Shown here: piece after piece, positions 6,214 through 26,100 of the stretch
Layout: every line of letters begins with the position of its first letter
Numbering within the stretch: position 1 is the stretch's first letter
NCBI GenBank assembly: GCA_945919295.1
Contig: CAMEJC010000003.1
Coordinates: forward strand, 1 to 49,951
Length of the DNA: 49,951 bases
Reading direction: 5' to 3'
Origin: an uncultured Mycoplasmatota bacterium
GTDB taxonomy: Bacteria > Bacillota_I > Bacilli_A > RF39 > UBA660
Program-made: the position numbers and the translations under genes
Notes under the pieces: model-generated
What the model saw: the letters and a program-made list of their open reading frames with translations, nothing else
Told to the model about the DNA's origin: nothing
The model's database searches: none

Positions 6214-8154
6214 ATGAAAAAGATAACTATATTATCAATAAAAACAATCTCAATATTCATTATCTCTCTTTTTATCTTAATTCCTAATATTAAAGCTAAA
6301 GAAGTTTGCAGTTCTAAAGGTAATTATCAAGAATGCACAGAATCTATAGATAGCTATTTCTTTATGTTAGAATCAAACAACTGTAGTAATGGTAAATGTA
6401 ATGTTCCTTCAACTACAAATTATACTGCTTATTATATAAATCCAAGAAGTGATGAGATAAAAAAAGGAGAAAAACTTGAATACACAAATATAACACTTCA
6501 AAGTGATCGTTGTTCTAATAATGACTGTATGACGTACTATGATTTTTATACCAATTATTTAAAACTAGATTTAATAACTAATTATACATCTTTAGAAGGA
6601 TTAAAAACAACATTGTCCCCATATCCATCTAAAGAAGGGGCGTCTAAAGTTATAAATTATAAAAAAACTGAATTAGAATGTTCTACTAAAGCATACATAA
6701 ACAACTCTACTACCGAAGAATATTATTTACGAGGTTGCTATTCTGAAAATGAACTAAAACTTAAATCAAATAAATCAGATAATGACGGCATAAGTGAAAG
6801 TAGTAATAACCTGAATAATACAAACTATGACATATATAAACTTTGTGGTCAATCAATTGAAATCCCTTATAATAATGATATTAATAACAAAATTAGCACA
6901 TGTGCAAATAAACTAATAAAAGCAACTGTTCCGGATTTGAGTGCTAACGAAAAAAAGAGCGAAATGACTATAGAAGATAATACTATCTTAACAACAATTG
7001 TAAGAAATGGCCAAAACAATATTATAATTACCCCAAGCAATACTGACGGAAATGAAGTAATAAAACCAAAAACAGGTCTTACAGAAACAAACCAAGTATT
7101 ATCACCTGCTTTATTCAAAACACCATATCATCTAACTACTAACAAATGCCTTCCAGATAAAGGAAATAATATTGAAGAGGCAAGTTGTAATTCTGGAAAT
7201 GATGAAATTATAACAAGTAATTGTGATAAAAAAACAATTTTAATAAATAACGGCGAAAATTCAGCTGATGTTTCAATAAATCAAACTGCCAGTGTTGCCA
7301 ATATATTAACACCTACATCCATCTATCAAGGTGGTGGTTTCCATTATGGATTTATCTATTATAATACAATCAAGTGGGACTATGCTGATACTAACCAAAA
7401 AAATCATCTTACCAATGATGAAAAAGAAGAATTGAAAACAATAATGAAAAACAAATTATTAAGTATTGAAGCTTTTACTGATAAATTAGATGTTCAAGAT
7501 GTCACATTTGGCGGACAAAATCCTAATATAACATTTGTAAAAAAGTGCCAACGTTTTGGAGAGTTTACAGCAGGCAATGAAGTAACAACAATTTGTACAA
7601 TATTCCTTCCTAATTCAACAATTGAAGACTACACAGGAAAAGTTACTTATAATAGTGATATATCCAATAATAATGGAATTAGTAATAAATACTATACGCC
7701 GCTTACTTATAGTGGAACTTATTCTGTATACGCAACTTTAAAGAATTTAAATGTTCTAAATACTACTAATGATAGCCAATTTAAAGATTTTGATTTAACA
7801 TTTGATGATCCAGAATCATGTACAGTAGATGTTTACAATAGATTATATGAAAAAGATTCAACTAATTATAAATTTATCTATAGACCAATAGATCTAAACA
7901 ATCCATTCCCAGATAGAAATGCTGGAGTCAATTGGTATGAATGGTATAGTGAACCTAGTAACAAGAAAAGATTACAAGAAAGTTATTCAAAATTACAATA
8001 TCAAGTTACACTAGATAATCAAACAGTAGCCAAAATTAAAGATTATAATACTAATCATAATTACCTAGAATGGGATAACATAGAAAATGGTGAAAGCAAA
8101 TTTATTGATACATACTTTTCTACTAAAAGAGAGAATCTAGGTGATGGTTCATGA
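6214..8154 (+). CDS. Large Cys-rich secreted protein in Tad operon
   Basis: This 646-residue protein has a signal peptide (about 1-28, ending IKAKE) and no further clear membrane helix, so it is predicted to be secreted. It carries about 16 cysteines, including close pairs such as NNCSNGKCN and SDRCSNNDC, and long Asn/Thr/Ser-rich beta-type regions. SD AGGAGG precedes ATG 6214. Its end overlaps the next gene by four bases (ATGA), giving tight translational coupling to a pseudopilin-like protein. It may be a tip adhesin or pilus-associated surface protein (inference). No known family was recognised. Confidence 0.85.
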   Translation: MKKITILSIKTISIFIISLFILIPNIKAKEVCSSKGNYQECTESIDSYFFMLESNNCSNGKCNVPSTTNYTAYYINPRSDEIKKGEKLEYTNITLQSDRCSNNDCMTYYDFYTNYLKLDLITNYTSLEGLKTTLSPYPSKEGASKVINYKKTELECSTKAYINNSTTEEYYLRGCYSENELKLKSNKSDNDGISESSNNLNNTNYDIYKLCGQSIEIPYNNDINNKISTCANKLIKATVPDLSANEKKSEMTIEDNTILTTIVRNGQNNIIITPSNTDGNEVIKPKTGLTETNQVLSPALFKTPYHLTTNKCLPDKGNNIEEASCNSGNDEIITSNCDKKTILINNGENSADVSINQTASVANILTPTSIYQGGGFHYGFIYYNTIKWDYADTNQKNHLTNDEKEELKTIMKNKLLSIEAFTDKLDVQDVTFGGQNPNITFVKKCQRFGEFTAGNEVTTICTIFLPNSTIEDYTGKVTYNSDISNNNGISNKYYTPLTYSGTYSVYATLKNLNVLNTTNDSQFKDFDLTFDDPESCTVDVYNRLYEKDSTNYKFIYRPIDLNNPFPDRNAGVNWYEWYSEPSNKKRLQESYSKLQYQVTLDNQTVAKIKDYNTNHNYLEWDNIENGESKFIDTYFSTKRENLGDGS

Positions 8155-9100: not shown

Positions 9101-9946
9101 ATGAATAATTTAAAAGCTTCTATGAAGAAATTTCTTGGTAACAAAAATACAGTTACCATATTAGGGGTAATATTATGTTTAGTAATATTATATATTGGTT
9201 ATAATTATCGTATCAACTCTAAAGTTGAATTAGTTCAAGTACCTTATGCTAAAGAGACAATCCAACCAAGGACTTATATCACTCAAAGTATGATTGGTAC
9301 TATGAATGTTCCAAAATCATTTTTGGTAGGTAAATATTATACAAGAACTGAAAATATTGTTGGTAAATATTCAAATTACAATACAATAATTGCAGAAGGT
9401 AGTCTTTTCTACACTGATCTTGTTGTTTCTAAAGAAGATTTACCAGATTCAGCATTTCAAGATGTACCAGAAGGATACACTGTTATTAACTATCCTGTTA
9501 CTTTAGCAAGTACTTATGCTAATTCAATGGCACCAGGTAGTTATATTAATATTTATTATAAATCATTAAATGATAATGGTGAAATAATGTTTGGTAAATT
9601 TATTAGTAATATAAAGGTATTAGATGTAAAAGATTCATCAGGTCAACATGTTTTTGAAAATAGTGAAGAAACAAGAACGCCTGCTTATATGTTATTTGCA
9701 GTTCCTGAAGAAACCCATTTACTTCTTAGAAAAGCTTTATATCTAGATGAATACGATGTTGAATTAATATTAATACCAAATACTGCCACTTTAACAGATG
9801 AAGATAAAAATACTGTTAGAGTAAGTAGTGATGATATTGAAAACTTCATTAATTCAAAAACAGTATTTGTTTCAGTAAATGATTTACCTGAAGTTGAAGA
9901 TAAAGTAAAAGAACAAAATGAAGACAATACTACCAATAATCAATAA
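9101..9946 (+). CDS. cpaB: CpaB/RcpC-like Flp pilus assembly protein (SAF domain)
   Basis: The 281-residue protein has an N-terminal helix (about 18-36) followed by a SAF-type domain. The motif run VPYAKETIQPRTYITQSMI, then VGKYSNYNTIIAEGSLF, is typical of CpaB. The second half is a beta-rich domain (YTVINYPVTLA... GSYINIYY) as in Firmicute CpaB proteins. It is an envelope component of Tad pilus machines, though its role in Gram-positives is less clear. The C-terminal tail is acidic/Asn-rich. Strong SD AAGGAGG; next gene cpaF begins 25 bases later. Confidence 0.88.
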   Translation: MNNLKASMKKFLGNKNTVTILGVILCLVILYIGYNYRINSKVELVQVPYAKETIQPRTYITQSMIGTMNVPKSFLVGKYYTRTENIVGKYSNYNTIIAEGSLFYTDLVVSKEDLPDSAFQDVPEGYTVINYPVTLASTYANSMAPGSYINIYYKSLNDNGEIMFGKFISNIKVLDVKDSSGQHVFENSEETRTPAYMLFAVPEETHLLLRKALYLDEYDVELILIPNTATLTDEDKNTVRVSSDDIENFINSKTVFVSVNDLPEVEDKVKEQNEDNTTNNQ

Positions 9947-9971
9947 AGAATAAAATAAGGAGGGGAAAAGT

Positions 9972-11294
9972 ATGGATGAAATGTTTACACAAATTGATTT
10001 TGGTCCATTAAAACCATTCCTTGAGAATGATGACGTAACTGATATATCATACAGTAATGGTGGACAAGTTTGGTTAAAGACATTATCACAAGGTGTATAT
10101 CGAGTTGAAAATACTGGAATAGATAATCCTTTAATGGAAAAAATAGCCTTTCAATGTGCCAATTCAATGGGTAAATCATTCAATATGGCCAATCCATTCC
10201 TCGATGCAGAATCTGCTGAACTTCGTATGAACTTTGTGCATGATTCTATTGCTAAAAATGGAATAGCTTGTCTAATAAGAAAAACACCAGCTAAAATAAG
10301 ATTAGAAAAAGAAAAAATAATTGCGGAAGATTATATTAGACTAAATATTCATGATTTTCTACTTAAGTGTGTTGAAGGACACTGTAATATTATAGTAAGT
10401 GGAGAAACAGGTTCAGGAAAAACAGAGTTTGTTAAGTATTTAGCGGCTCATACAAAAGAAAATGAAAAACTAATAACCATTGAAGATACTCTTGAATTAC
10501 ACTTAGATCGAATCTTTCCCCATCGTGATATTGTTGCTATGAAAACCAATAATATTGCCTCATATTCTGATGTATTAGTAACATGTATGAGACAAAATCC
10601 AAGATGGATCCTACTTTCCGAAGTAAGATCAGCTGAAGCTGTTATGGCAGTTCGTAACTCGATATCATCAGGACATAATATTTTATCGACAATTCATGCT
10701 GATAAAGCCGAATCAATACCAAGTAGAATGTATAGCTTACTTGAAACAAATCAAGATGTAGGTCAATTTCTAGCTACCATTCATAGATATGTTCAATTAG
10801 GTGTACATATCAAAGGATATTATAGTCAAAAATATAAAAGATTTCATAGAGAAGTATCTGAAGTAGTAGAGTTTTATGTTACTGAAGATAATAAAGCCGA
10901 ATATAAAATTCTTTATAAAAAGACTCCTGATGGACATGAAACAATTGCTAATCCAACTAAGTATCTAATTGGATATTTAGAAAGTCAGGGTGTTATCATG
11001 CCAAATGATATTCTTGTAAAAGAACAGTTTCATGAACAAACTACTAATAATAACTTAAGAGAAAACAACTTTGTAGTAGACAATAGTGGTCAAAGTATTA
11101 TGTCTAATGTTCGAAGTAACATTACACCTAATAATATTGAAAGACAAAATATAAATCAAAGTACTTTGATTAATAATCAGAATCTTGTTAATAATCAAAG
11201 TCAAATAAATAATAATATACCAAATATTTATGCTAACAATCCAAATATACCTAAAGAAGTAAATATGACTAGCATAAATAATGGATTGCAGTAA
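9972..11294 (+). CDS. cpaF: CpaF/TadA secretion ATPase
   Basis: This is the hexameric VirB11-family ATPase that powers Tad pilus assembly (440 aa). The Walker A GETGSGKT lies at about residues 143-150. It is followed by the Asp-box region ITIEDTLEL, Walker B-like ILLSEVRS and the His box STIHAD. The N-terminal domain (residues 1-120) has the usual sensor fold (NPFLDAESAELRMNFV). Unusually, the last roughly 95 residues are an Asn/Gln-rich low-complexity tail beyond the normal ATPase end. It is the only VirB11-type ATPase in the window, next to both the Tad and T4SS operons. Confidence 0.95.
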   Translation: MDEMFTQIDFGPLKPFLENDDVTDISYSNGGQVWLKTLSQGVYRVENTGIDNPLMEKIAFQCANSMGKSFNMANPFLDAESAELRMNFVHDSIAKNGIACLIRKTPAKIRLEKEKIIAEDYIRLNIHDFLLKCVEGHCNIIVSGETGSGKTEFVKYLAAHTKENEKLITIEDTLELHLDRIFPHRDIVAMKTNNIASYSDVLVTCMRQNPRWILLSEVRSAEAVMAVRNSISSGHNILSTIHADKAESIPSRMYSLLETNQDVGQFLATIHRYVQLGVHIKGYYSQKYKRFHREVSEVVEFYVTEDNKAEYKILYKKTPDGHETIANPTKYLIGYLESQGVIMPNDILVKEQFHEQTTNNNLRENNFVVDNSGQSIMSNVRSNITPNNIERQNINQSTLINNQNLVNNQSQINNNIPNIYANNPNIPKEVNMTSINNGLQ

Positions 11295-11309
11295 AAGGTA
11301 GGTGAAATA

Positions 11310-12203
11310 ATGGAAATAATTTTAATAGGACTAATTATTGTATTTATAGTTTCTTATCGAACAAAAAAAGGTGAATCAGTATATAAATTTATTTCTGAAC
11401 AAGCTGTAAATACTTATAAAAAAATAGAACCATATTCTTTTAAAATAATGCGAGAAAAAGTAAAAGAATTAGGATTAGAATATACTCCTAGACAATATTT
11501 ATTTCAAATCGTAGCATTTGCTGGATTAGCGGGAGGAATTAGTTATCTATATTTTTATAATTTACTTATATCAATAGTCTATGCCATAATCGCAGTATCA
11601 TTTATTCCATATATAACTTATCTAAGATGTAAAAGACAATATAGTGAATATATATTTGAACAAGTACAAGTATATTGTACTAATACCATAATGGAATTTG
11701 CTACAACTCAAGCATTTGTAAAATCACTTGAAGGAGTAGTTGCCTCTGGTATCTTAGAAGAACCACTTTTATCAGATGTAAAAACAATGATAGCCTTATC
11801 ATATGAAAAAGGAGATGTCTATGATTCCATAAAATATATGGATACCAAATATCCTTACTATATGGTAAAAAATATGCATCAATTATTCTTACAAGTAACA
11901 AAAGAAGGTGCTAAAGATACTCAAGAAACATTTGAAAATATGCTATCAGATATTGATATATTAGTCGAAGGAGTATATCGTGATAGAACAGATAGAGCAA
12001 ATTTCCATAAACAATTTTTAACTTTCGGTGTAGCTTTATATGGATTAATAGCATTAATTCAGATATTAATAAGTCAAGAAACATACATTGCTATGTTAGA
12101 TAATATAATAGTTAGATTACTAGTACATGGAATAGTAATAATAAATAGTTGTTTTCTTCTTGCTGGAGAAAAATATTACAACGAGAATGTAGGTGCTGAA
12201 TAA
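11310..12203 (+). CDS. tadB: TadB-like inner membrane platform protein
   Basis: This 297-residue protein has the type II secretion F-domain layout. An N-terminal helix and a membrane pair (about 65-105) precede a cytoplasmic helical domain (VQVYCTNTIMEFATTQAFVKSLEGV, MHQLFLQVTKEGAKDTQETFENM). Two C-terminal helices span about 230-290. TadB with TadC forms the platform through which pilin is assembled. It lies directly after cpaF, and its stop overlaps the tadC start (TAATG). Confidence 0.86.
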   Translation: MEIILIGLIIVFIVSYRTKKGESVYKFISEQAVNTYKKIEPYSFKIMREKVKELGLEYTPRQYLFQIVAFAGLAGGISYLYFYNLLISIVYAIIAVSFIPYITYLRCKRQYSEYIFEQVQVYCTNTIMEFATTQAFVKSLEGVVASGILEEPLLSDVKTMIALSYEKGDVYDSIKYMDTKYPYYMVKNMHQLFLQVTKEGAKDTQETFENMLSDIDILVEGVYRDRTDRANFHKQFLTFGVALYGLIALIQILISQETYIAMLDNIIVRLLVHGIVIINSCFLLAGEKYYNENVGAE

Positions 12204-13000
12204 TGTTTATAGAAATGTTAATTATAGCCATAATAGTAATATACATCTTCGTTGTAAATGGTAAAATAAACACTAATGGTATACTAAATAATAATAGTAA
12301 ATTATGTAATTTACTAAAAGAAAAAGATTACGATTTTCTACTTATTGCTAAATATGGTGATCGAGTATATGATCCTAATGAAGTATTTATGAAAAGAGTA
12401 AGAAATGGCATTTTAACATTCGCAGCTTTAGTATTTCTTTTCATAACAAAAATGAGTTACTTAGGATTAATAATAGCCCTAGTAATAGCCTTTTTAGTAT
12501 ATAAAAATCAGTATTTAAGTTTAAAAAAATGGTATAGACAGCATTTAAATTACATTGATTCATTATTACCATATTATCTTAAAACATTAGAAGTTTTAAT
12601 TCATCACTATACAGTACCAGTAGCAATAGCAAAAAGTATAGATGATGCTCCTGAAGTATTTAAACCAGGGTTAAAGCGTATGATTGAAAAAATAGAATCA
12701 GGAGATTCTTCAATAGATCCATATATGGATTTTGCCAATGAATATCCTGTAAGAGATTCAATGCGTATGATGAGATTATTATATCGATTAGGACTTGGAG
12801 AGCAAGAAAAGAAACATCAGCAATTAGTTTCATTTTCAAAATCAGTATCATCTCTTCAAGCAAAAGCAAGAGAACAAAAATATCAAGCTAGATTAAATGC
12901 AATGGAAAGAAGAACAATGATTATGATGTGTGTAACAGGATTTGGTTCTCTTGGATTACTATTGATTTCAATATTTATGTTAATGGGAAATATGATGTAA
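12203..13000 (+). CDS. tadC: TadC-like inner membrane platform protein
   Basis: This 265-residue partner of TadB has an N-terminal helix and a central membrane pair (about 70-105). The cytoplasmic F-domain includes YIDSLLPYYLKTLEVL, YPVRDSMRMMRLLYRLGLG and the Lys/Arg-rich QAKAREQKYQARLNAMERR. A final helix spans about 238-260. The arrangement cpaF-tadB-tadC-pilin matches Tad loci. It overlaps the previous stop by one base. Confidence 0.86.
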   Translation: MFIEMLIIAIIVIYIFVVNGKINTNGILNNNSKLCNLLKEKDYDFLLIAKYGDRVYDPNEVFMKRVRNGILTFAALVFLFITKMSYLGLIIALVIAFLVYKNQYLSLKKWYRQHLNYIDSLLPYYLKTLEVLIHHYTVPVAIAKSIDDAPEVFKPGLKRMIEKIESGDSSIDPYMDFANEYPVRDSMRMMRLLYRLGLGEQEKKHQQLVSFSKSVSSLQAKAREQKYQARLNAMERRTMIMMCVTGFGSLGLLLISIFMLMGNMM

Positions 13001-13058
13001 ATATTTGAAATATATAAAAAAGAATAAAAAAATAATATATGAAAGAAGGTGAAAAGTA

Positions 13059-13247
13059 ATGAAAGAAGCAACAGGTGAAGTATCAATGACTGTAATTGTT
13101 ATTGTAGCAGTAGCAGTAATTGGAGGTATCTTAGCAGCATTATGGCCAAAAATAACTACTTGGATAAATAATGCTTGGGGAGGTAATGCAGATAATTACT
13201 GTCCAGCAGGACAAACTTGGGATGAAACAGCCGGAGCATGTAAATAA
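13059..13247 (+). CDS. Small Flp-type pilin
   Basis: The 62-residue product fits the major Flp/Tad pilin. It has a short charged leader MKEATG, then a hydrophobic helix (about 9-30, VIVIVAVAVIGGILAALW), then a small extracellular tail with two cysteines in CPAGQTWDETAGACK that could close a loop. The leader resembles that of the next gene (MREAFGG), pointing to a shared prepilin peptidase site after Gly6. It has a good SD (GAAGGTG) and lies just after tadC, the classic position. No prepilin peptidase gene is in this window. Confidence 0.85.
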   Translation: MKEATGEVSMTVIVIVAVAVIGGILAALWPKITTWINNAWGGNADNYCPAGQTWDETAGACK

Positions 13248-13271
13248 TTAAAACAAAGTAGGTGATAAATA

Positions 13272-13721
13272 ATGAGAGAAGCATTTGGTGGAACTTTTAC
13301 AATTCAATTAATATTAGTATTCTTAGCTATTTATATAGCTTTTATAGCGGTAGCTTTAAACTATGCTAAAGCATTTAGAGTAAAGAATCAAATAATCAAT
13401 TTAATAGAACAAAATGAAGGAATAGAAGACACAGAATGGACAGATCAAAGTGGAGTAATAGGTAAAATAAATACCTATTTAGGACAAATGAGTTATTATG
13501 TTGATTTAAATAAAATATCAAATAATAATAATAATAATAATTTACATTGCTATGAAAAGGGATATTGTATTGAAGAATATAGTTTAAACAGTACTGATGG
13601 AATAGATAGCGTATATTACAAAGTAACAACATATGTAAAGATAGATTTACAAGTATTTCGTCTAAACTTTACTATTCCAATAACAGGAGAAACACGTAAA
13701 ATAGAAAGGATTACTAATTAA
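13272..13721 (+). CDS. TadE-like pseudopilin
   Basis: The 149-residue protein has a short leader MREAFGG followed by a long hydrophobic helix (about 8-28). A polar extracellular domain follows with a poly-Asn stretch and two Cys (HCYEKGYCIEEY). This is the architecture of TadE/TadF pseudopilins, minor pilus subunits. The AAT-repeat encoding the Asn run (about 13516-13540) is a simple repeat that could vary in length. SD AGGTG; the next gene starts 2 bases after the stop. Confidence 0.82.
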   Translation: MREAFGGTFTIQLILVFLAIYIAFIAVALNYAKAFRVKNQIINLIEQNEGIEDTEWTDQSGVIGKINTYLGQMSYYVDLNKISNNNNNNNLHCYEKGYCIEEYSLNSTDGIDSVYYKVTTYVKIDLQVFRLNFTIPITGETRKIERITN

Positions 13722-13723
13722 TA

Positions 13724-14722
13724 ATGGATACAGTCATATCAAATAAATATAGTAGTATACTTGGTTCTTTAGATATTGAAGTATCAAAAAGATTAGAAGG
13801 AGAATACGAAGTAGATGAAATAATATCTACCTTTGGTAATTATTTCTTTAACAAAATGTTTTTAGATATAACTGCTATTAAAGATTATAAAGATTTAACT
13901 AATTTACAAAAATTATCAATGAGTATCAATATGGATAAAGTAATATTACTTTTAGATAAAGATGATGCCATAAGTGATTCAAAAATATTTTTATCAAAAT
14001 TAGTTAATATGGGTATATATAATTTTACTAAAGATCCTAAAGATTTAATGTATTTATATACCAATCCTAATATTTATCGTGATGTAGCATATCTTCAAAA
14101 TATCGAAGATGATCAAAGTTCTAATAATACCAGTGCTATCTCTCAAGTATCTCCTAATAAAAAAGTATTAGGAGTAAAAAATATCACTGATTCTGCTGGT
14201 TCAACAACTCTAATATATATGCTAAAAAAAGTATTAAGTGATTATTATAGTGTTATGGCATTAGAAATAAATAAAAGAGATTTAACTTATTTCAAAGATA
14301 AAGATACTCTTACTGTTAAAGAAGATGAAATCGATACTGTTATATCAAAATATAGTAGTGTAGATATATTTTTATTAGATCTAAATAAATATAATAAAGA
14401 ATATATATGTACCGATGTATTATATTTAATAGAACCAACTACTTTAAAATTAAATAAACTATCTTTAATTAATCCTAAAGTATTTGGAGAATTAAAAGGA
14501 AAAAAAGTAGTACTTAATAAAAGTCTATTAAATGAAGATGAAATAGCAGATTTTGAGGTTGAATCTGATTTAAAAGTTTATTATAACATGCCACCATTAA
14601 ATGATAAAAAAGATAATAGTAATATCATTTTACCATTACTAGAGAAATTAGGCTATGTTAAAGCTGTTGAAACAGAAGAAGAGAAAACTAAAAAAAACAG
14701 ATTATTTGATTGGTTCAAATAA
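13724..14722 (+). CDS. TadZ/CpaE-like protein with degenerate P-loop
   Basis: This is the last gene of the Tad operon (332 aa). Residues 1-125 resemble the atypical receiver domain of CpaE/TadZ. From about 147 a MinD/ParA-like domain begins (KVLGVKNITDSAGSTTLIYML), but the deviant Walker A lysines are absent: TDSAGSTT stands where GGVGKTT-type sequence is expected. TadZ normally places the pilus machine in the cell, and inactive ATPase domains are known in the family. Assignment rests on position, size and this degenerate motif, so it is moderate. Confidence 0.72.
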   Translation: MDTVISNKYSSILGSLDIEVSKRLEGEYEVDEIISTFGNYFFNKMFLDITAIKDYKDLTNLQKLSMSINMDKVILLLDKDDAISDSKIFLSKLVNMGIYNFTKDPKDLMYLYTNPNIYRDVAYLQNIEDDQSSNNTSAISQVSPNKKVLGVKNITDSAGSTTLIYMLKKVLSDYYSVMALEINKRDLTYFKDKDTLTVKEDEIDTVISKYSSVDIFLLDLNKYNKEYICTDVLYLIEPTTLKLNKLSLINPKVFGELKGKKVVLNKSLLNEDEIADFEVESDLKVYYNMPPLNDKKDNSNIILPLLEKLGYVKAVETEEEKTKKNRLFDWFK

Positions 14723-15097: not shown

Positions 15098-15427
15098 ATG
15101 ACAAGTGAGATATGTGGAAGTTTAGGTCCAGTTCTAAGAATAGTAAATATAATTATCAATATAATATGGATTGGTATACCTATAATATTAATAATTTTAG
15201 GATCTATTGATTTAGGAAAGGCTGTTATATCAAGTAAAGAAGATGAGGTGAAAAAAGCTAAAAAAGCATTCATTAATAGATTAATATATGCTATTTTAGT
15301 ATTCGCAGTAGTGTGGATAGTAACATTTATTTTTGATCAAGTAGCAAAATTAGGATTAGATGATGCAGATACTGCTTCATGGAAAAGCTGCTGGAGTGAA
15401 ATTAGAAATATAAAGCCAGCATCTTAA
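15098..15427 (+). CDS. VirB2/TrbC-like pilin
   Basis: This 109-residue protein has two membrane helices (about 12-38 and 60-80) joined by a charged cytoplasmic loop (SSKEDEVKKAKK). This is the hairpin topology of VirB2/TrbC conjugal pilins. The IDLGKAVISSKED signature recurs in the truncated copy at 4689-4904 and, diverged, at the end of the protein at 15533. No long signal peptide is seen; the N-terminus carries one Cys (EICGS). It heads the T4SS operon with its own promoter and is followed by a strong terminator, which would make it more abundant than downstream gene products, as expected for a pilus subunit. Confidence 0.82.
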   Translation: MTSEICGSLGPVLRIVNIIINIIWIGIPIILIILGSIDLGKAVISSKEDEVKKAKKAFINRLIYAILVFAVVWIVTFIFDQVAKLGLDDADTASWKSCWSEIRNIKPAS

Positions 15428-15445: not shown

Positions 15446-15474
15446 AAGAAATCAAAAAATGATTTCTTTTTTTG
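15446..15474 (+). terminator. Intra-operon terminator after the pilin gene
   Basis: AAGAAATCA (15446-15454) pairs perfectly with TGATTTCTT (15460-15468), with a 5-base loop and a T-tract. Leaky read-through could set pilin in excess over the downstream machine genes. Confidence 0.8.
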
Positions 15475-15532: not shown

Positions 15533-16918
15533 ATGAAGAAAAAACTATTTTTATTAACTACTTTTTTAATATCTTTTGTTATGTTTAGTAGTAGTGTTAG
15601 AGCAGATGAATATCCAGAACTTAGTTGTCTTTATAATGGTAATGAAGATTGTTCACATTGGTGGACTCTTGGAATAAATTTTTGTGTGCAAGGAATGACA
15701 TTAATAACTCAATCAGCATCAGGAGATATAAATATATATTATACTAAAGATCCTATTACTAATAGAAGCGATTTATATAATTACCCAATTAAAAATGCAA
15801 AACTTTATAAGTACGATAAATATGAAGATAAAAATAAGTTGTATTCGAGTTCTCAAACAGATCATAAAAATCAATTTAAAAATAATGGATGTCCTAAATA
15901 TGTGAATTATGATAATGGTAGAGTTGAATACACATATGATGAACCTGAAGAAGGCAAAAATTTCAGTAGTTATTATCCACTATTATCAACCGAACCAATA
16001 CCTAAATCGACTACTAATAATTCAAGCAAGGAATTAACATGTAATTATCCCGCCCTTAGTTATCAAAAAAAATTAGAAATAGAGCAATCATCAAATGGCG
16101 AGATAACTACTATTTATGATGGCGATGAAAAAAAACTCAATTTACACAATGACAATTCCGAAGAAGATACGGGATATAATGTAAAAACAGGAAATTTTGA
16201 TTTCTGCCCAATATGTGCTAATAAAAGCGGTGATGATGTATATTTTTATAATGGTGAAGAAGATGGTAGTTGTAAAACCAGTTATGCTGGATTTAAAAAT
16301 ACTGACAATAGTGAATGGATATATACATGTAATTATGCAATGGTTGACGATGCTAAATCCACTGTAACACTCTATTATAATGAAGAAAACTTTAAAATAG
16401 AATTAACTTACACTGATCAATATAAACATATTGTATCATATGGATTTACTGCTTCAGAACTATGGAATAGTAATAGCAATTCCTGTCCTTCTTTTATTTA
16501 TTCAAATTTTCAAGCACAATATAGCGATTTAGATACATTTTATTTAAAAGAAAAAGGGCATAAATATCTTCTAATATCAAGTAGTGGTGGAGAAGAAAAG
16601 AAAGAAATTTCAGGAGGAAAGGAACCAGAAAACTGCAAAGAATTAATTGGCGAAGATGTAATAGAAATAATTAATGAAGTAATGAAAGTAATTAGAATTG
16701 TTGTTCCAATATTATTACTTATATTTGGAATAATAGATTTCTTTAGAGCAACATTTGCTAATGGAGAAGATGATATGAAAAAATCGAGAGATAGATTCTT
16801 TAAAAGAATAATCGCGGCAATTATTGTATTTCTTGTTCCAATATTTGTTAATTTGGTTTTGAAAATTTCTAATACTGTGTGGTCCGATATTAATCAAGAA
16901 ACATGCATAGAAGAATAG
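15533..16918 (+). CDS. Cys-rich exported protein with C-terminal VirB2-like module
   Basis: The start is placed at ATG 15533 because GGAG at 15521-15524 is correctly spaced; GTG 15524 lies on the SD itself. An extended -10 (TGCTATAAT, 15483-15491) precedes it. The 461 residues comprise a signal peptide (1-25), an ectodomain of about 340 residues with about 13 Cys (including FCPICANK), and from about 368 a VirB2-like hairpin. The hairpin has helix VIRIVVPILLLIFGIIDFF, loop ANGEDDMKKSRDRF and helix RIIAAIIVFLVPIFVNLVL. It is thus a pilin-type membrane module carrying a large exposed head: a possible tip or adhesin subunit (inference). Confidence 0.82.
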   Translation: MKKKLFLLTTFLISFVMFSSSVRADEYPELSCLYNGNEDCSHWWTLGINFCVQGMTLITQSASGDINIYYTKDPITNRSDLYNYPIKNAKLYKYDKYEDKNKLYSSSQTDHKNQFKNNGCPKYVNYDNGRVEYTYDEPEEGKNFSSYYPLLSTEPIPKSTTNNSSKELTCNYPALSYQKKLEIEQSSNGEITTIYDGDEKKLNLHNDNSEEDTGYNVKTGNFDFCPICANKSGDDVYFYNGEEDGSCKTSYAGFKNTDNSEWIYTCNYAMVDDAKSTVTLYYNEENFKIELTYTDQYKHIVSYGFTASELWNSNSNSCPSFIYSNFQAQYSDLDTFYLKEKGHKYLLISSSGGEEKKEISGGKEPENCKELIGEDVIEIINEVMKVIRIVVPILLLIFGIIDFFRATFANGEDDMKKSRDRFFKRIIAAIIVFLVPIFVNLVLKISNTVWSDINQETCIEE

Positions 16919-16935
16919 TAAATAAGGAGGTAAAT

Positions 16936-18837
16936 ATGATAAATATATTAGTGGATTGGCAAGATGTCAGTAGCGGAATTATTGCCGCACTTCGAATGCT
17001 TTTATTAAAAATTTGTGATCCTATTTACAGCTTGATTACTTTTTGCTTTGATATATTTGAAGATTTTGGTAAAGTAAGATTATTTGAAAATAGTGATACC
17101 ATTTCACTTATATATACAAGAGTAGGATTAATATTAGGATTATTTATGATATTTAGACTTACATTTGCCGCTATTGAATATTTAATTAATCCTGATAAAA
17201 TGACAGATTCAAAAGCTGGCATTGGAAACATCATAAAAAAAGTTTTAATTGTAGTAATTTTGTTAGGAAGTACAAGATTTTTGTTTAATTTTGTTTATAA
17301 TCTTCAAAATAAATTAATTGACAGCAACATCGTGGGAAATATTATTTTGGGGCCTTCATACTCTTCAAATGAAAAAGTAAGTGCTGGAACAAACATAGCG
17401 TGGTATACATTTTCACAATTTTATCGACTCAATGATGAAATTGAAACAGTTGGAGCAGCAAATGAAGAAAATTATACTATATGTCAAATTTTGCTTAAAA
17501 CTGCAACAGAAAACGATTCTACAGAAGGAACTATAATACAAGATTTTAAAAGTAACCATTCTCTAGAAGCTACAGAATATTGTGTAAATTTACAAACTGA
17601 TGGTAAATATACGCCTACTTATTTAAGAGAGACTACTGATAAAGTAAAACTAAATATTATTGATTTTAATGGTTTTATTTGTTTGGCGGTCGGTATAATT
17701 TTATTATGGATAATAGTAACTTATACAGTTCAAGTTGGCGTAAGGGTATTTCAACTTGCATATTTAGAGTTAATAGCTCCTATACCAATAATGATGTATT
17801 TAATGCCAAATGGAGAAGAAAAACTAAAAAAGTGGGGGCAGCAATGTTTAACAACATTTTTAGATTTCTTTATCAGATTAGCAATTATGGATTTTATAAT
17901 ATTAATATCAAATTCTTTAATTGAATTAACAGATCAAAGTTTTCTCGGTAATTTTAGTACTGATGGCGTATGGAGTGATGGCTATATTATAGTAATACTT
18001 ATTGTGGCTTTATTTATATTTGCTAAAAAAGTACCAAACTTATTAAAAGAAATATTCCCTTCAACAGGAAGTGCCGCCGGTTTCGACTTTGGATTAAAAA
18101 TGCCAAAAGAAGCCAAACAAGTTGGCTTATTTGGTGCAGGTGCTGTACTTGGCGGAGCAGGAGCAGCAGCATCCAACCTTCTTCATAGCACGGCAACCGG
18201 TATCAAAGGTATTAAAGATGCACAGGGAACTGGAAATAAATGGAAAGCTGGTCTAAAAGGATTTGGTAAAGGATTTTTATCAGTTGCCGGAGGAGCAGCT
18301 AGCGGAATGACCCATGGTGCTAGAATTAAAAATATGCGTGGAGTTGGTGAAACTATTAAGACTACTAATCAAAATAGAGATAAGAGAGATTTGAAACAGG
18401 CGGCAGGATACAAACCATGGCATGCTGCAGGCGACAAAGTATTAGGATTTGCTGGACTTGATACTAAAGCAGATACCATGATTAAAGAAGCACAATGGCA
18501 ACAGCAAGCAGCTGAAGCAAGTAGAAGTGCTATTTGGAAAAATGCTGAAGATTTAGTTAAAAATGGAACTTTGAGTTATGAAGATTATTCATTTGCTAGA
18601 AGCTTAAGACAAGATAAGGATAAATCGGGAAATACTATTTGGAGAGGATTAGATAAATCTGGAAAAGAAATTACTATTAAAGATGTTGATTTGCAAGCAG
18701 AACTTGCTCGCAGAACTACAAGTGGTATTGATTTATCACAAGAGGTTAGAGATAATGCTAGTGTTGATGAACGTATAAAAAAAGAAGGAAAGAAAATTAA
18801 AGGTTTAGAAGCAGCGAACGATGCCGCTAAAAAATAA
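16936..18837 (+). CDS. VirB6/TrbL-like polytopic T4SS channel protein
   Basis: The start is at ATG 16936 after AAGGAGG; an upstream in-frame ATG at 16903 lies inside the previous gene and lacks an SD. The 633-residue protein has hydrophobic segments near 17-40, 58-84, 100-124, 235-290, 305-330 and 350-370, with an extracellular stretch around 130-230. This is the VirB6/TrbL layout of the inner-membrane channel. The last roughly 260 residues form a cytoplasmic Gly/Ala-rich then charged tail, as in Gram-positive VirB6-like proteins. It lies between the pilins and the VirB3/VirB4 genes. Confidence 0.84.
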   Translation: MINILVDWQDVSSGIIAALRMLLLKICDPIYSLITFCFDIFEDFGKVRLFENSDTISLIYTRVGLILGLFMIFRLTFAAIEYLINPDKMTDSKAGIGNIIKKVLIVVILLGSTRFLFNFVYNLQNKLIDSNIVGNIILGPSYSSNEKVSAGTNIAWYTFSQFYRLNDEIETVGAANEENYTICQILLKTATENDSTEGTIIQDFKSNHSLEATEYCVNLQTDGKYTPTYLRETTDKVKLNIIDFNGFICLAVGIILLWIIVTYTVQVGVRVFQLAYLELIAPIPIMMYLMPNGEEKLKKWGQQCLTTFLDFFIRLAIMDFIILISNSLIELTDQSFLGNFSTDGVWSDGYIIVILIVALFIFAKKVPNLLKEIFPSTGSAAGFDFGLKMPKEAKQVGLFGAGAVLGGAGAAASNLLHSTATGIKGIKDAQGTGNKWKAGLKGFGKGFLSVAGGAASGMTHGARIKNMRGVGETIKTTNQNRDKRDLKQAAGYKPWHAAGDKVLGFAGLDTKADTMIKEAQWQQQAAEASRSAIWKNAEDLVKNGTLSYEDYSFARSLRQDKDKSGNTIWRGLDKSGKEITIKDVDLQAELARRTTSGIDLSQEVRDNASVDERIKKEGKKIKGLEAANDAAKK

Positions 18838-18859
18838 ATAGAAAGGAAGTGTGATAATA

Positions 18860-19189
18860 GTGAATGGTTATTTAGTACCTGCTAATGCTAAAAGGGGTAC
18901 ACTAATACTTAATATATTTAGACCATTTGATTTAATTATGTTTGGAACGGGAGTAATAGTATCATTATTAATGTTAGCTATTGTTCATTCAGATAGTACT
19001 TTAATGATACTAATATCTTGCCTACCAGCAGGTATAACAGGATTATTAGTTGTTCCAATACCTAATTATCACAATGTTCTATGTGCAATACAAAGTATAT
19101 TTAGATTTTATTCAGAAAGAAGAAATTATATATGGAGAGGTTGGTGTTTTTATGAAAAATTCGCAGTCGATGACAAGTCAAAAAAGTAG
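18860..19189 (+). CDS. VirB3/PrgI-like small membrane protein
   Basis: Directly before the VirB4-like genes lies a small protein with two close membrane helices (about 24-62), preceded by VPANAKRGTLILNIFRPFDL and followed by a basic segment. This is the pattern of PrgI/VirB3-type proteins, which dock the VirB4 ATPase. Start choice is uncertain: GTG 18860 (109 aa) sits 10-11 bases after AGGAAG, while GTG 18851 (112 aa) would almost touch the SD. The 3' end overlaps the next gene by 38 bases. Confidence 0.8.
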   Translation: MNGYLVPANAKRGTLILNIFRPFDLIMFGTGVIVSLLMLAIVHSDSTLMILISCLPAGITGLLVVPIPNYHNVLCAIQSIFRFYSERRNYIWRGWCFYEKFAVDDKSKK

Positions 19190-19718
19190 TTCAAAATATA
19201 CAGAAGATTGGTTACCAATAAAATCAATAGCTAATGGATATATTCTATTAGATAATAAATTAAAAGTAACTGGAGTTAAAATAAGACCAAGAAATATCTT
19301 TATTCTTGATCAAGGAGTTCAAGATAATACTTTGATAGCTTTAAAGAATTTCTATAATACTATAGATTTTGAATTTTGGCTTATTTCAGCGGATCGTCCT
19401 GTTGATTTAAATAATTATTTAGCTAGATTACAATTACTATATAATCAAACACCTAATCCTGCAGTTAGAAAATTAATAAATCAAGATATTGATAAAGCCA
19501 ATACTTTTATGAATAATAATATTACAGATACTGAGTATTACATTCTATTTAAAGAAAAAAATGATGATTTAATTCAAAAGAGACTTAGAACCTTGATAAC
19601 TGGACTTGCTAATTCAGGATTAGAAGCTAAACAAGTATCTAATGATGATTTAAGAATAATAATAGATAATTTTCTTAATAGCGGTATGACAACTAATTTT
19701 GGGACGGTGATTTCATAA
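19152..19718 (+). CDS. VirB4 N-terminal domain encoded as a separate protein
   Basis: Start at ATG 19152 (SD GGAGAGG), inside the end of the VirB3-like gene. The 188 residues (DWLPIKSIANGYILLD, VKIRPRNIFILDQ, then FEFWLISADRPVDL) look like the N-terminal domain of VirB4/TraC family ATPases. It has no Walker motifs and no membrane helix. The next gene supplies the remainder, and their sum, about 780 residues, equals a normal VirB4. The stop overlaps the next start by one base (TAATG), so equimolar synthesis by coupling is likely. Confidence 0.75.
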   Translation: MKNSQSMTSQKSSSKYTEDWLPIKSIANGYILLDNKLKVTGVKIRPRNIFILDQGVQDNTLIALKNFYNTIDFEFWLISADRPVDLNNYLARLQLLYNQTPNPAVRKLINQDIDKANTFMNNNITDTEYYILFKEKNDDLIQKRLRTLITGLANSGLEAKQVSNDDLRIIIDNFLNSGMTTNFGTVIS

Positions 19719-21502
19719 TGAATTTAAAAAGTGAATTAGCTCCTAAAGGGATGCAATTTAATCCTTCAGATTTTGTTATAAGTGATAAATATGCTACAAT
19801 TCTTACTGTAATTTCTTATCCAAGATTTATTGGACCAGGATATTTATCTAACTTAACTAATATGTCTGGTGTTAAATTAGTAATTAAACATATACCAGTA
19901 CCTTTTTCTGTTTTAGCTAAAATGTTAAATAAAGAAATATCTGATTTAAAAAGTAGATATCAAGAAGAAAAAGACAGAACTATTCAAGAAAGAATAAGAC
20001 AAGATGTTGAATCATTAGAATACTTTATTCAGCAGTTTACTGCTTCTCAAGCTAAAACATTTGATTTTCAAATGCATATTATGGTAACTGCTAATACTAG
20101 AGAAGAACTCGAAATGAAAAAAGTAAATCTTAAAAATTATATGGATGCTATGGAATTAAGAGCAATTCCTTTAAGGTTTGAACAAGAAAGAGTATTAAAA
20201 TCAATTCTTCCTATTTTTGATAAACAACCGATTGAAGATCGAATAGGAACTCCAATGCCATCACCTACAATGGCTGCGATGTATCCATTTATCTTTGATA
20301 GTATTAAAGATGATGGTTTATCGACACTACTTGGTGTTGATTTCTCAGGTGGTGTTGTATTATTTAATCAATTCTTATATCAAGTAAGAAAAGAGAGCAA
20401 TCGAAATAATGCTAATATGATTATTTTAGGTACATCAGGTAGTGGTAAATCAACCGCAGCAAAATTAATCCTTCGAAGTCATATTAGAAATGGGTACCAG
20501 ATAGTAGCGGTCGATCCTGAAGGTGAAATCAGTGAGATGACCAGAATGTATGGCGGTGACGTTGTCGATTTAGGTAAAGGTGGAGAATATGGTATGGTAA
20601 ATCCACTTGAAGTTATTATGGATGCTGATGAGACAGAAATAAAAAATGGACTTGGTTATACAGTATTAAATAAAACACTTCAATCACTAAAAGCTTTTAT
20701 GAAATATTATTCTCCTGATATAGAAGAAGATGTCTTAGCCTTATTCAGTGAAGTAGTTCAAGATACATATGCTAGATTTGGTATCACATTTAATTCAGAT
20801 TTTTCTAAATTTACATCTAAAGATTATCCTACTTTCAGTGATGTTTATATAACAGTAACTAGTAAATTAACATCTATGACTGAAAAAACTCATGAGAGAG
20901 ATGTTATGGAAAGACTTGAATTAAAATTAAGACCATTAGTTAGAGAATTACAGTATTACTTTAATGGTCATACTTCAATAAATACTGAAAGTGACTTCTT
21001 AGTATTCAATATCAAAGAACTTATGAATTCTGATGTTAATATTAGAAATGCATTACTATTTAATGTTCTTAAATTTGCTTGGGGATTATGTCTAAATCCT
21101 AATGTTAATACTGTTTTATCAGTAGATGAAGCGCATGTCTTATTAGGAGCAAAAAATGAATTAGGAGCAGAATTTTTAGCTCAAGTACAAAGAAGAGCTA
21201 GAAAATATAATACAGGTACCATAATAATAACGCAGCAACCTTCAGATTTTGTAGCAGATGGTATATTAATGCATGGTAAAGCAATATTTGATAATTCTTC
21301 GTATTATTTAGTTATGGGATTAAAGAAACAATCAGTTGAAGACTTATCAATGTTAATAGATTTAAATGATAATGAAAAAGAGGCAATTAAAAGATTTAGC
21401 CAAGGTGAAGCTTTATTTGTATGTGGAAACAGAAGAATGCAAATAAATGTTATAGTAACTGAAGATGAATTAGAGTCATTTGGCTCAGGTGGTGGATTAT
21501 AA
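19718..21502 (+). CDS. virB4: VirB4-like T4SS ATPase (catalytic part)
   Basis: This 594-residue ATPase contains Walker A GTSGSGKST at about 238-246 (before it, the typical GVDFSGGVVLFN), then VDPEGEIS, Walker B VLSVDEAHVL at about 465-474, and the glutamine switch IIITQQPSDF. These define the VirB4/TraE superfamily, which energises T4SS assembly and transport. The usual N-terminal part is encoded by the preceding ORF. The context of VirB3-like before and wall hydrolase after is the standard Gram-positive T4SS order. Confidence 0.93.
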   Translation: MNLKSELAPKGMQFNPSDFVISDKYATILTVISYPRFIGPGYLSNLTNMSGVKLVIKHIPVPFSVLAKMLNKEISDLKSRYQEEKDRTIQERIRQDVESLEYFIQQFTASQAKTFDFQMHIMVTANTREELEMKKVNLKNYMDAMELRAIPLRFEQERVLKSILPIFDKQPIEDRIGTPMPSPTMAAMYPFIFDSIKDDGLSTLLGVDFSGGVVLFNQFLYQVRKESNRNNANMIILGTSGSGKSTAAKLILRSHIRNGYQIVAVDPEGEISEMTRMYGGDVVDLGKGGEYGMVNPLEVIMDADETEIKNGLGYTVLNKTLQSLKAFMKYYSPDIEEDVLALFSEVVQDTYARFGITFNSDFSKFTSKDYPTFSDVYITVTSKLTSMTEKTHERDVMERLELKLRPLVRELQYYFNGHTSINTESDFLVFNIKELMNSDVNIRNALLFNVLKFAWGLCLNPNVNTVLSVDEAHVLLGAKNELGAEFLAQVQRRARKYNTGTIIITQQPSDFVADGILMHGKAIFDNSSYYLVMGLKKQSVEDLSMLIDLNDNEKEAIKRFSQGEALFVCGNRRMQINVIVTEDELESFGSGGGL

Positions 21503-21525
21503 GCCATTGTTAGGTGGTGAGTATT

Positions 21526-22878
21526 ATGGAGGAAAACAGGAAGCAATCCTTTTGGAGTAAATTACCTTTAAAAACAAAAGCAATCATTATAAGTGTAGCT
21601 ATAGGATTCATTTCAATCATGCTCTTCCTAATAGTAATAATCACACCTCTAATGGTTTTAGGAATAATAGATGTTGAAGGAATAGGTAGTAGTAATGTAG
21701 GATTGTCATATTCAAATATATCTTCTGCGAATTCCTTTTGGTGGCCAATCGGTAGTAATGAAACTGAAGAAATTGATGGAGTAACTTTTGCCAGTGGAAA
21801 TCCTGAATATATCAATATATCTTCCGAATTTGGATATCGTGAAACACCATATCCAGGAGAACACCAAGGAATTGACATAGCATCAGGTCAAAATTGGGGT
21901 GAAGGAAATATAATAGCGGCAAAAGATGGAAAAGTCATATACCCAACCGAAAATGATCCATTAAGTTGTGTTTCGAATACTGATGTAAGTGATAGATGTG
22001 GTGGTGGATATGGTAACTATGTTATGATTGAACATAGCGATGGAACTGTAACATTATATGCCCATATGTATGAAAATTCTATTACTGTAAGAGCAGGAGA
22101 TACCGTAAAACAAGGCCAAGTTATCGGCCTAATGGGTAGTAGTGGTCAATCAGAAGGAACACACTTACATTTCGAAGTAAGAGTAAATGGTACTCAAGTT
22201 GATCCACTAAACTACGTATCTTCAGAAGATCCAAGACCTAAAGGAATGTTTAACCTAATTTCAATTGAAGGTGGTTATGGCAGTGCTGAAGAAAATAAAA
22301 GTGTTATGTGTAAAACATTAATAAATGCTGGATACTCTAATAACGCAGTAGCAGGAATATTAGTTAATGTTAGTCACGAAGGTGGTTTCCAAACTAATAA
22401 CATGGAGAATTGTTATGAATTTAATCAGTGCTGCCGAATAAATGGCAAGAATTATGGCATGTGTACAAAGTCAAGTAATGATCCACTAAGAAATTATGCT
22501 AATGATGAATTATATACAGCTGCTGTTGATAGTGGTGATTATAGTAAAGAAAGTTTTTCAAGTGATAGTGTAGGGTATGGATTAATTCAATGGACGTCAG
22601 AGGGAAGAAAACAAGGACTATATGAATTATCAAAGAGTGAAGGAAAATCCATTGCTGACTTAAATATTCAGATAAACTATTTGTTCAAGGAAATTATGGG
22701 TGGTTCATATCCAGTTACTTGGGAAGCACTTACTGATGAAACTGCCAGTGCCACTGAAATAGCAACAAAATTTTGCCTTGATTTTGAAAGGCCAAGTTCA
22801 AAAGAAACCGAGTGTCCAGCGAGAGCAGCATCAAAATCAGCAGCCTTCGTACAATATGTAGAAAATGGTTGTCAATAA
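21526..22878 (+). CDS. VirB1-like wall hydrolase: M23 peptidase plus phage-type lysozyme
   Basis: The start is ATG 21526 (SD AGGTGG); GTG 21514 overlaps the SD. Domains of the 450-residue protein are a cytoplasmic tail and anchor (about 20-48) and an M23/LytM endopeptidase at about 100-235. The zinc ligands are in HQGID (about 113-117) and THLHFEV (about 212). From about 265 to 445 follows a phage-tail-lysozyme-like muramidase (VAGILVNVSHEGGF with catalytic Glu, VGYGLIQWTSEGR). Such two-enzyme proteins locally open peptidoglycan for Gram-positive T4SSs. It begins 23 bases after virB4. Confidence 0.9.
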   Translation: MEENRKQSFWSKLPLKTKAIIISVAIGFISIMLFLIVIITPLMVLGIIDVEGIGSSNVGLSYSNISSANSFWWPIGSNETEEIDGVTFASGNPEYINISSEFGYRETPYPGEHQGIDIASGQNWGEGNIIAAKDGKVIYPTENDPLSCVSNTDVSDRCGGGYGNYVMIEHSDGTVTLYAHMYENSITVRAGDTVKQGQVIGLMGSSGQSEGTHLHFEVRVNGTQVDPLNYVSSEDPRPKGMFNLISIEGGYGSAEENKSVMCKTLINAGYSNNAVAGILVNVSHEGGFQTNNMENCYEFNQCCRINGKNYGMCTKSSNDPLRNYANDELYTAAVDSGDYSKESFSSDSVGYGLIQWTSEGRKQGLYELSKSEGKSIADLNIQINYLFKEIMGGSYPVTWEALTDETASATEIATKFCLDFERPSSKETECPARAASKSAAFVQYVENGCQ

Positions 22879-23979: not shown

Positions 23980-26100
23980 ATGAAAATTAAAGTAGAAAAA
24001 AAAGATTTAATAATATTTTGTGCTTTCTGTGTATTCTTATTATATCTTTGTGCTATTGGAGTATTAAATGCCTCTAGTATAGCAACAGAAGGGAAATTTT
24101 ATGGTTTTTTGCCATTTAAAGCTTTTACCTCAAGATATATTGGCATGACATTATTTTTGTTTTTAGCTACAATAGTTGGTCTATTTTTTGCAGTTAAATC
24201 TTATATTTTTGATCGTGATAAAGGTTTTGGATTCTCTGTGGGGTCAAAAAAAGAAAAAGGATATTCTAGATGGGCTACTGATAGTGAATTTAAAAAAGGT
24301 TTAGATGTAGTCAATATAAAAGATCAAAAAATAAATGCCGCTGGTATAGCCCTTCACAGTAAAAAAGGACAAATGTGGGTAGATAATGGTGAGTCCCATT
24401 ATTTAGTTATGGGTGCTACTGGTTCTGGTAAATCAGAAATCGTCGCTAAACCAATGATAAAATTACTTGCTAAACATGATGAATCTATGATTCTAACCGA
24501 TCCTAAGGGTGAATTATATGAAGAAACAGCTGAATTATTAAAAGCCGCAGGATATAATATTATCACTTTGAATTTTAGAGATCCTCAGCACGGTAATGCT
24601 TGGAATCCAATGAGCCTACCATATCAATTATATAAAGAAGGAAATCAAGATAAGGCCATAGAACTATTAGACGATTTAGCTTTAAATATTTTATATGAAG
24701 AAAAATCAAGTGGGGATCCATTTTGGGAAAAGACTGCTGCCGATTACTTTACTGGATTAGCCTTAGGACTTTTCGAGGATGGAACAGAAGAACAAATAAA
24801 CTTAAACAGTTTAAACTTAATGTCTAGTTTAGGAGAAGAAAGATTTGGAGGACCTAATAATAATTACATTAAAGAATATTTTAATGGAAAAGATCCATCA
24901 AAACCAGCCTATATTAATGCTTCCGGAACTGTCTTCACTGCCGATGAGACCAAGCAAGGAATTATAGCCACATTTAAACAAAAAGTAAAACTGTTTTCAT
25001 CGAGAGAAAATTTATCCGAAATGCTTTCTTATAGTGATTTCGATATGCGTGAGATTGGAAGAAAAAAAACAGCGGTCTTTCTAATAGTGCAAGATGAAAA
25101 GAAAACATTACATCCACTTGCTACCATTTTTATCAAGCAATGTTATGAAACACTTATCGATGTAGCTCAAGAAAGTGGTGGAAAACTTCCCTTTAGAACA
25201 AACTTTATTCTAGATGAATTTGCCAATATGCCTCCATTAAAAGATGTAACAACCATGGTTACCGCCGCTAGAAGTAGATTAATAAGATTTACATTCATTA
25301 TCCAGAACTTTGCACAATTAACTCAAGTTTATGGCAGGGAAAATGGCGATACTATTCGAGGTAACTGTAATTTAGTATATTTAATAAGTAGTGAAATTGC
25401 TGCTCTTGAAGAAATAAGTAAGATGTGTGGAGAAGTAAAATCAAAAGAAAAAGAAAAAACAGCTTCGACACCACTCGTTACTGTAAGTGATCTTCAGCGA
25501 TTAAATAAATTTGAAATAATCGTTTTACGAAGTAGAATGTTTCCATATAAAACAAGATTTCAGACTAATTTTGAAGTTGATTGGGGAAGAACATATCCTA
25601 AAGGCGTGCTTCCAGTTAGAGAGAAAAGACCAGTGGAACTATTTGATATCAGAGAATTTGTTAAAGCCAAGAAAAAAGAAAAAATGGAAGCAATGGGAAG
25701 TTTTGAACCTTCCGCTAATCCATTTATGGGACCAAATCCATTCGGTGGAAATCCATTTATGGGTTCAAGTCCATTTGGTTCATTACCAAAATTCCTAGAT
25801 GATGAAAAAGAAGATGTAATTTCTAAAGGTAATGATAGTTTTAACATTGATGATCTAGTTAAGAAGATCGATGCCAAAATAGCAGAAATTGAAAAAGAAG
25901 AAGAAGAAACTAAAAATAAAAATGATGATATTTCAATTAAAGATTTAATTCCAAATAAACCTATTGAAAATAATAATAGGGAAGAATCTTTAAATAATGT
26001 CATTGAAGCAGACAGTAAAGAAAACAAAGAAATTCAAACCATGTATGAAGATAATACTGCAGATGATGATTTCTTTGATGATTTCTTCTCAGACGATTAA
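23980..26100 (+). CDS. virD4: VirD4/TraG-type coupling protein
   Basis: The 706-residue coupling ATPase selects substrates for the T4SS. Two N-terminal membrane helices (about 9-30 and 52-76) are followed by Walker A GATGSGKS (145-152), the LTDPKGELYEET motif, Walker B ILDEFANMPPLKD (about 408-420) and a C-terminal TraD/TraG domain. The tail is unusual: after about residue 565 comes a Pro/Phe/Gly repeat (NPFMGPNPFGGNPF) and then a long Glu/Asp/Lys-rich segment ending in an Asp/Phe cluster, possibly a substrate or partner docking tail. No relaxase gene accompanies it here, so the cargo may be protein or an unlinked DNA element. Confidence 0.94.
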   Translation: MKIKVEKKDLIIFCAFCVFLLYLCAIGVLNASSIATEGKFYGFLPFKAFTSRYIGMTLFLFLATIVGLFFAVKSYIFDRDKGFGFSVGSKKEKGYSRWATDSEFKKGLDVVNIKDQKINAAGIALHSKKGQMWVDNGESHYLVMGATGSGKSEIVAKPMIKLLAKHDESMILTDPKGELYEETAELLKAAGYNIITLNFRDPQHGNAWNPMSLPYQLYKEGNQDKAIELLDDLALNILYEEKSSGDPFWEKTAADYFTGLALGLFEDGTEEQINLNSLNLMSSLGEERFGGPNNNYIKEYFNGKDPSKPAYINASGTVFTADETKQGIIATFKQKVKLFSSRENLSEMLSYSDFDMREIGRKKTAVFLIVQDEKKTLHPLATIFIKQCYETLIDVAQESGGKLPFRTNFILDEFANMPPLKDVTTMVTAARSRLIRFTFIIQNFAQLTQVYGRENGDTIRGNCNLVYLISSEIAALEEISKMCGEVKSKEKEKTASTPLVTVSDLQRLNKFEIIVLRSRMFPYKTRFQTNFEVDWGRTYPKGVLPVREKRPVELFDIREFVKAKKKEKMEAMGSFEPSANPFMGPNPFGGNPFMGSSPFGSLPKFLDDEKEDVISKGNDSFNIDDLVKKIDAKIAEIEKEEEETKNKNDDISIKDLIPNKPIENNNREESLNNVIEADSKENKEIQTMYEDNTADDDFFDDFFSDD

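Follow-up and report, generated by a model that had tools for sequence, protein, structure and literature searches.

The window, by which we mean the whole 49,951-nucleotide stretch analysed here, carries a T4SS locus on its forward strand. Its genes run in the order RcpC, TadA, TadB, TadC, Flp, TadE, small pilin, headed pilin, VirB6, VirB3 and VirB4 (two ORFs), with an M23/lysozyme protein and a VirD4-type coupling protein 3' of VirB4. The Tad pilus genes (9972-13721) encode a TadA/VirB11-type ATPase, TadB, TadC, a Flp-like pilin and a TadE-like protein; the ATPase was identified by profile, and the other Tad names rest on layout and position, in an order conserved in related loci. Wherever the contig extends far enough, the Tad/Flp cluster (9101-14722 in the window) mostly lies directly 5' of the T4SS genes, and no VirB11-type ATPase other than TadA was seen in the locus. 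A secreted Cys-rich protein of 646 residues without Pfam match (6214-8154) adjoins the Tad genes.

Downstream of the two pilin genes lie a VirB6-like polytopic protein (16903-18837; NF045848, E 2.6e-10, below the cut-off of that model) and a VirB3/TcpE-like protein (18851-19189), the latter assigned from its position, a weak TcpE match (E 0.085) and its retention in related loci. VirB4 consists of an N-terminal part in a separate ORF (19050-19718; NF045975 positions 92-277), whose true start is probably downstream of 19050, and of the ATPase C-terminal part (19718-21502; NF045975, E 4e-107). Both in the window (19050-21502) and in related loci these are two overlapping ORFs; in the Mycoplasma-type model VirB4 is one protein. 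Pfam identifies the next product as a VirB1-like M23 peptidase with a lysozyme-like domain (21514-22878), and the VirD4-type coupling protein (23980-26100) scores above the cut-off of NF045973. The genes flanking the locus look like housekeeping genes.

The gene directly before VirB6 (15533-16918, forward strand) encodes a headed VirB2-like pilin of 461 aa, recognized from its ORF, its PF18895 profile match and its recurrence in related loci. The start is an ATG at 15533 with a fitting RBS (GGAG), a GTG at 15524 overlapping the same RBS, and the stop is at 16918. A Sec signal peptide (residues 1-24, 15533-15604; MKKKLFLLTTFLISFVMFSSSVRA) was assigned by eye, and AF2 models a helix at residues 2-20. 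It is followed by an extracellular head without Pfam match (residues 26-365, 15608-16627), which contains three C-x-Y...C-P units (about residues 32-121, 170-226 and 266-319), and by the pilin domain (residues 368-461, 16634-16915), identified from PF18895, AF2 and its Cys pair and laid out as Cys368, TM helix, basic loop, TM helix and Cys458. A sequence-only reading of this DNA had described a signal peptide and a head of about 340 residues, as found here, with about 13 Cys in the head, a count that has to be corrected to 10 (residues 32, 40, 51, 120, 170, 225, 228, 247, 266 and 318), or 12 in the whole protein when Cys368 and Cys458, which frame the helix hairpin, are included.

The same reading had proposed a profile search of residues 368-461 against VirB2/TrbC. 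The domain matches T4SS_pilin PF18895 (29.2 bits, E 9.7e-7; Pfam cut-off 26.6 bits), which in a six-frame search of the genome scored 33.2 bits at 16661-16858; the TrbC/VirB2 family PF04956 gave no Pfam match to the headed pilin at E <= 1. The hairpin helices (374-408 and 412-452) are modelled by AF2 with a pLDDT of about 90, and the window head with a low-confidence pLDDT mostly below 50-60. A chance match of hydrophobic helices is ruled out by the conserved position, the Cys pair and the profile score. No profile in Pfam or NCBIfam pointed to an unrelated membrane anchor family for these helices, although an anchoring role stays as a rival and is weighed below. Because the protein, with 461 aa and a 340-aa head, exceeds the mature size of an ordinary VirB2 (about 70-120 aa), we class it as a variant carrying the PF18895 domain and not as an ordinary VirB2.

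The preceding gene (15098-15427, forward strand) encodes the small, probably major, VirB2-like pilin of 109 aa, which matches PF18895 at 18.4 bits, below the cut-off. It aligns to the headed pilin with 38% identity (E 4e-10), in agreement with the earlier proposal that the C-terminal helices are VirB2-like and share the layout of the preceding pilin. Between the two genes, a hairpin scan detected an AT-rich terminator-like hairpin followed by a T run (15447-15474, forward strand), which is missing from a stricter GC-based terminator scan.

With VirB4 as query, 80 related loci were collected from uncultured Bacilli and Candidatus Onthousia. Typically the small pilin is followed by the pilin with the N-terminal head and then by VirB6, VirB3 and the split VirB4; gene order was compared as far as each contig extends, and agrees there. 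The slot directly before VirB6 is conserved, with 68 "last" pilins, and 57 loci also have a small pilin upstream. Small copies measure 103-148 aa and VirB6-adjacent copies 108-708 aa. While 47 of 66 VirB6-adjacent copies reach at least 250 aa, 19 of 66 are short (<170 aa), and therefore the large head is optional and the machine need not always have one. A tree of 219 pilin domains, whose branch supports are moderate owing to the shortness of the domain, places 63 of 64 small copies in one half and 70 of 76 VirB6-adjacent copies in the opposite half; most pilin domains from scattered (orphan) genes form a further group. By their sequences, the small and headed pilins are distinct paralogues. 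Some of the "last" copies, e.g., those of L058 and L101, may instead represent the small pilin, the headed gene being absent or lost from these loci.

The hairpin between the two pilin genes is a recurrent feature. When gaps of 25-300 bases were scanned, 40 of 42 small-to-headed gaps contained a terminator-like hairpin followed by a T run, compared to 0-4 in 20 dinucleotide shuffles; of the gaps upstream of the small pilin, 0 of 42 contained one. Its location between the two genes suggests excess production of the small pilin, probably the major subunit. A role of the headed protein as minor subunit is supported by the conserved putative terminators together with its separate orthologous group.

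Across small, headed and orphan copies, one proline and one phenylalanine of the hairpin are at least 90% conserved, and a Cys before helix 1 and a Cys after helix 2 co-occur in 94-100% of relatives. The inter-helix loop contains 5-6 Lys/Arg versus 1-2 on the flanks in all groups, which argues that both ends of the hairpin should face outside and the loop should be cytoplasmic. A hydrophobic N-terminal segment is present in 65 of 69 N-headed proteins. Three VirB6-like proteins (L099:7055, L110:7067 and, weakly with 14.9 bits, L203:4155-6713) also match the pilin profile near their N-terminus, perhaps reflecting a shared hairpin origin.

Head sequences diverge much faster than the machinery next to them. 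Among members of the genus, identity is 93-96% for VirB4, 58-66% for the small pilin domain, 38-43% for the headed pilin domain and about 25% for the head, which equals the alignment background; the exception is G009, where residues 257-460 of the headed pilin match at 44%. At E 0.001, the window head alone had no match in 290 other genomes of the family. Such rapid divergence is as expected of a putative surface binder. What most heads do share is a motif: C-x-[YF] occurs in 54 of 59 heads, CP in 50 of 59 and the ordered C-x-Y...C-P in 37 of 59, against shuffled means of 32, 11 and 1.2. A profile of this unit made from two heads failed to reach other heads, and the shared motif is therefore given as a statistic. 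The head matched no Pfam family at E <= 0.1, VirB5 included, and nothing better than E 0.07 among PDB sequences. Foldseek searches with the window model and a better-sampled L065-type head, models that are partly of low confidence, gave no PDB fold match at E <= 0.001, and the L065-type head had none among viral models at E 0.001. AF2 models this L065-type head (8 sequences) as an N-terminal beta domain and a confident helical stalk leading to the hairpin. The VirB6 of the window (16903-18837) is 31-36% identical to those of the genus, diverging almost as fast as the heads.

These genomes also carry the PF18895-type pilin domain in orphan genes, where it is joined to peptidoglycan hydrolases and esterases. 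In most of them the pilin domain is N-terminal, without a separate signal peptide, and is followed by an extracellular domain; the predicted outside location of both ends of the VirB2-type hairpin would explain why cargo is able to occupy either end. Pfam matches among 64 orphan proteins, several of which overlap on one protein, comprised CHAP (10), C39-like (7), GDSL (5), NlpC/P60 (4) and VanY (3), as well as single matches to M23, YkuD, lysozyme, S11, S13, ELLD, amidase and others. The neighbor of the orphan gene encodes a lipoprotein or a protein with N-terminal TM segment downstream in 29 of 44 cases and upstream in 8 of 44. In 10 members of the genus a related lipoprotein comes after a pilin-cargo gene, and six of them share a further flanking gene; at this shared chromosomal site five genomes have CHAP as cargo and one has a C39-like domain, with pilin domain and lipoprotein constant. 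The window itself holds, on the reverse strand, a decayed pilin-CHAP gene (4174-4904), made up of a 71-aa pilin ORF (4689-4904; pilin match, E 4e-14) and a CHAP-like ORF (4174-4692) whose assignment rests on its likeness to the L114 product. A lipoprotein gene lies downstream of it (3499-4155, reverse strand). An intact relative of this pair is present in G000 C28 (L114:4921-6581), and a similar lipoprotein occurs inside a T4SS locus (L206:10748-11437).

Matches to the pilin protein were obtained in 37 of the 37 genomes of its own family first searched and in 0 of 23 outside the family. Of 198 genomes drawn from across the class, 23 had the domain, all 23 belonging to the same family and nearly all carrying the same T4SS. 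VirB4 of this type is present in 215 of 244 family genomes that are at least 90% complete. The pilin domain and the T4SS were not always found together, since 12 of 20 VirB4-negative drafts keep the domain. Six of these have TadA and likely a truncated locus; in the six others, which are incomplete assemblies, neither VirB4 nor TadA was detected.

According to a 2025 review, VirB2 and VirB5 are absent from Gram-positive T4SSs except those of Patescibacteria (PMC12857230). The occurrence across a whole, little-known family of uncultured gut Bacilli of a VirB2-like small pilin, with a usually headed paralogue, stands against this stated absence. Pilin arrays of PF18895 type have been described in Patescibacteria and resemble the present system in having two-helix PF18895 pilins, a monoderm T4SS and several divergent copies per locus (PMC12102498, PMC10633639). 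The Patescibacteria arrays comprise 2-11 VirB2-like pilins, whereas the loci studied here combine one to a few small pilins with a single, mostly headed paralogue fixed ahead of VirB6, and cargo fusions occur at other sites. The part of the Patescibacteria account considered makes no mention of large heads, a comparison by description and not by protein size (PMC12102498). The closest named machinery is that of the Mycoplasma ICE (VirB4 NF045975, E 4e-107; VirB6, E 3e-10). Its pilin-like model NF045849 matches only at E 0.05 and has 80 positions, hence no head. The Mycoplasma system is an ICE, whereas here the locus is chromosomal and lies among housekeeping genes in a genome without PF03432 relaxase, on which grounds a conjugative element was ruled out. 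One Mob_Pre protein is encoded on another contig of the same genome, and no plasmid relatives were found.

In Gram-negative T4SSs, VirB5 is exported as a minor component that docks on VirB6 and occupies the tip (PMC12857230). We put at about 0.5 the probability that the VirB6-adjacent copy is a minor pilin with a binding head, likely replacing VirB5. Sec would export the N-terminal head, while the C-terminal hairpin would stay in the membrane with both ends outside, presumably joined by a disulphide between the conserved Cys pair. The hairpin would dock, and possibly co-assemble, with the abundant small pilin and VirB6, and the head would be displayed outside the secretion channel or a putative pilus, probably at its tip or base, where it could bind the target surface. 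A head fused to a pilin might in this way do the job of VirB5 as a tip or assembly-start adhesin, and the earlier idea that the headed pilin caps the pilus or binds target cells is plausible. The likeness to VirB5 is one of proposed role only, adjacency to VirB6 being seen for the headed pilin as adjacency of genes. VirB5 is a separate protein, whereas the head of the headed pilin has no VirB5 match and carries its own pilin hairpin. What is established for the minor-pilin reading is the hairpin family, the gene order, the paralogy, the optional and fast-changing head, the terminator-like hairpin and the predicted topology. Counted against it are the short copies, the hairpins with cargo enzymes, the six drafts with neither VirB4 nor TadA detected, the low-confidence head model and the lack of a Foldseek match. 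If correct, this reading suggests how a monoderm T4SS that lacks VirB5 could locate its partners, and the heads would constitute a natural set of exchangeable parts.

Because the same hairpin carries enzyme cargoes in scattered genes, a plain membrane anchor also fits. The pilin domain would then be a general membrane hairpin, and the headed protein an anchored adhesin or sensor outside any pilus. We hold this to be unlikely but the main rival, since the orphans adjoin housekeeping genes far from the T4SS and carry typical surface enzymes attached to either hairpin end, and since some drafts (the six in which neither VirB4 nor TadA was detected) have orphans without a detected T4SS. It sits less well with the fixed position of the VirB6-adjacent copy and its own group in the tree, with the conserved Pro and Phe and near-universal Cys pair, which exceed the needs of an anchor, and with the class-wide draw, where the domain was confined to one family and nearly always accompanied by this T4SS. 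It is quite improbable that the VirB2-like proteins line or gate the channel in a machine without pilus, the head serving as lid or wall-contact domain. The slot next to VirB6 and the description of Gram-positive T4SSs as devoid of VirB2 pilins (PMC12857230) would agree with such a role, but the biased dosage suggested by the terminator-like hairpin fits a polymer better, and the rapid change of the head fits contact with varied partners.

The orphan genes raise a further possibility, which we consider improbable: the pilin domain could be a loading tag that incorporates head and cargo proteins into the pilus or channel of the T4SS for delivery or display to neighboring cells, the hydrolases being antibacterial effectors and the lipoproteins, judging from gene pairing, putative self-protection. 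The cargoes are indeed mostly cell-wall enzymes (10 CHAP, 7 C39-like, 4 NlpC/P60, 3 VanY, M23, YkuD, lysozyme and S11), the cargo differs between CHAP and C39-like domains at one shared site where pilin domain and downstream lipoprotein stay, and the lipoprotein or N-terminal-TM neighbor is biased to the downstream side. On the other hand, the hydrolases may merely make way for the machine through the wall of the producing cell, and the lipoprotein may be a machine part and not an immunity factor, given the similar one inside a T4SS locus. No account of headed VirB2 or of pilin-hydrolase fusions was found in the open-access literature searched, nor any of T4SS delivery by pilin fusion, and we know of no T4SS that delivers in this manner. 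The comparable fusion design is that of evolved T6SS VgrG/PAAR effectors, in which a structural tip protein is fused to exchangeable enzyme domains; that is a different machine, and delivery by the present fusions is a proposal. Reuse of the pilin anchor with heads and enzymes suggests a docking module for outer binding or cutting parts. The broader view, in which the VirB2-type pilin domain serves for loading in general, appears rather doubtful to us. On this view, these Bacilli would assemble a pilus or channel from a small pilin and adorn it with paralogues whose interchangeable heads attach to targets or cleave cell walls, and the T4SS would deliver or display enzymes by pilin fusion. Importantly, the scattered pilin-enzyme fusions make the question of whether a pilin can carry cargo directly testable.

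Two further arrangements of these genes were observed. In G024 (L208:466-2371), TadE, u13724 and the small pilin are kept and the usual following T4SS genes are replaced by others. In G108 C1 (L186:2255-7936), four pilin-domain genes with products of 383-554 aa lie in tandem, in a genome with 16 pilin-domain matches.
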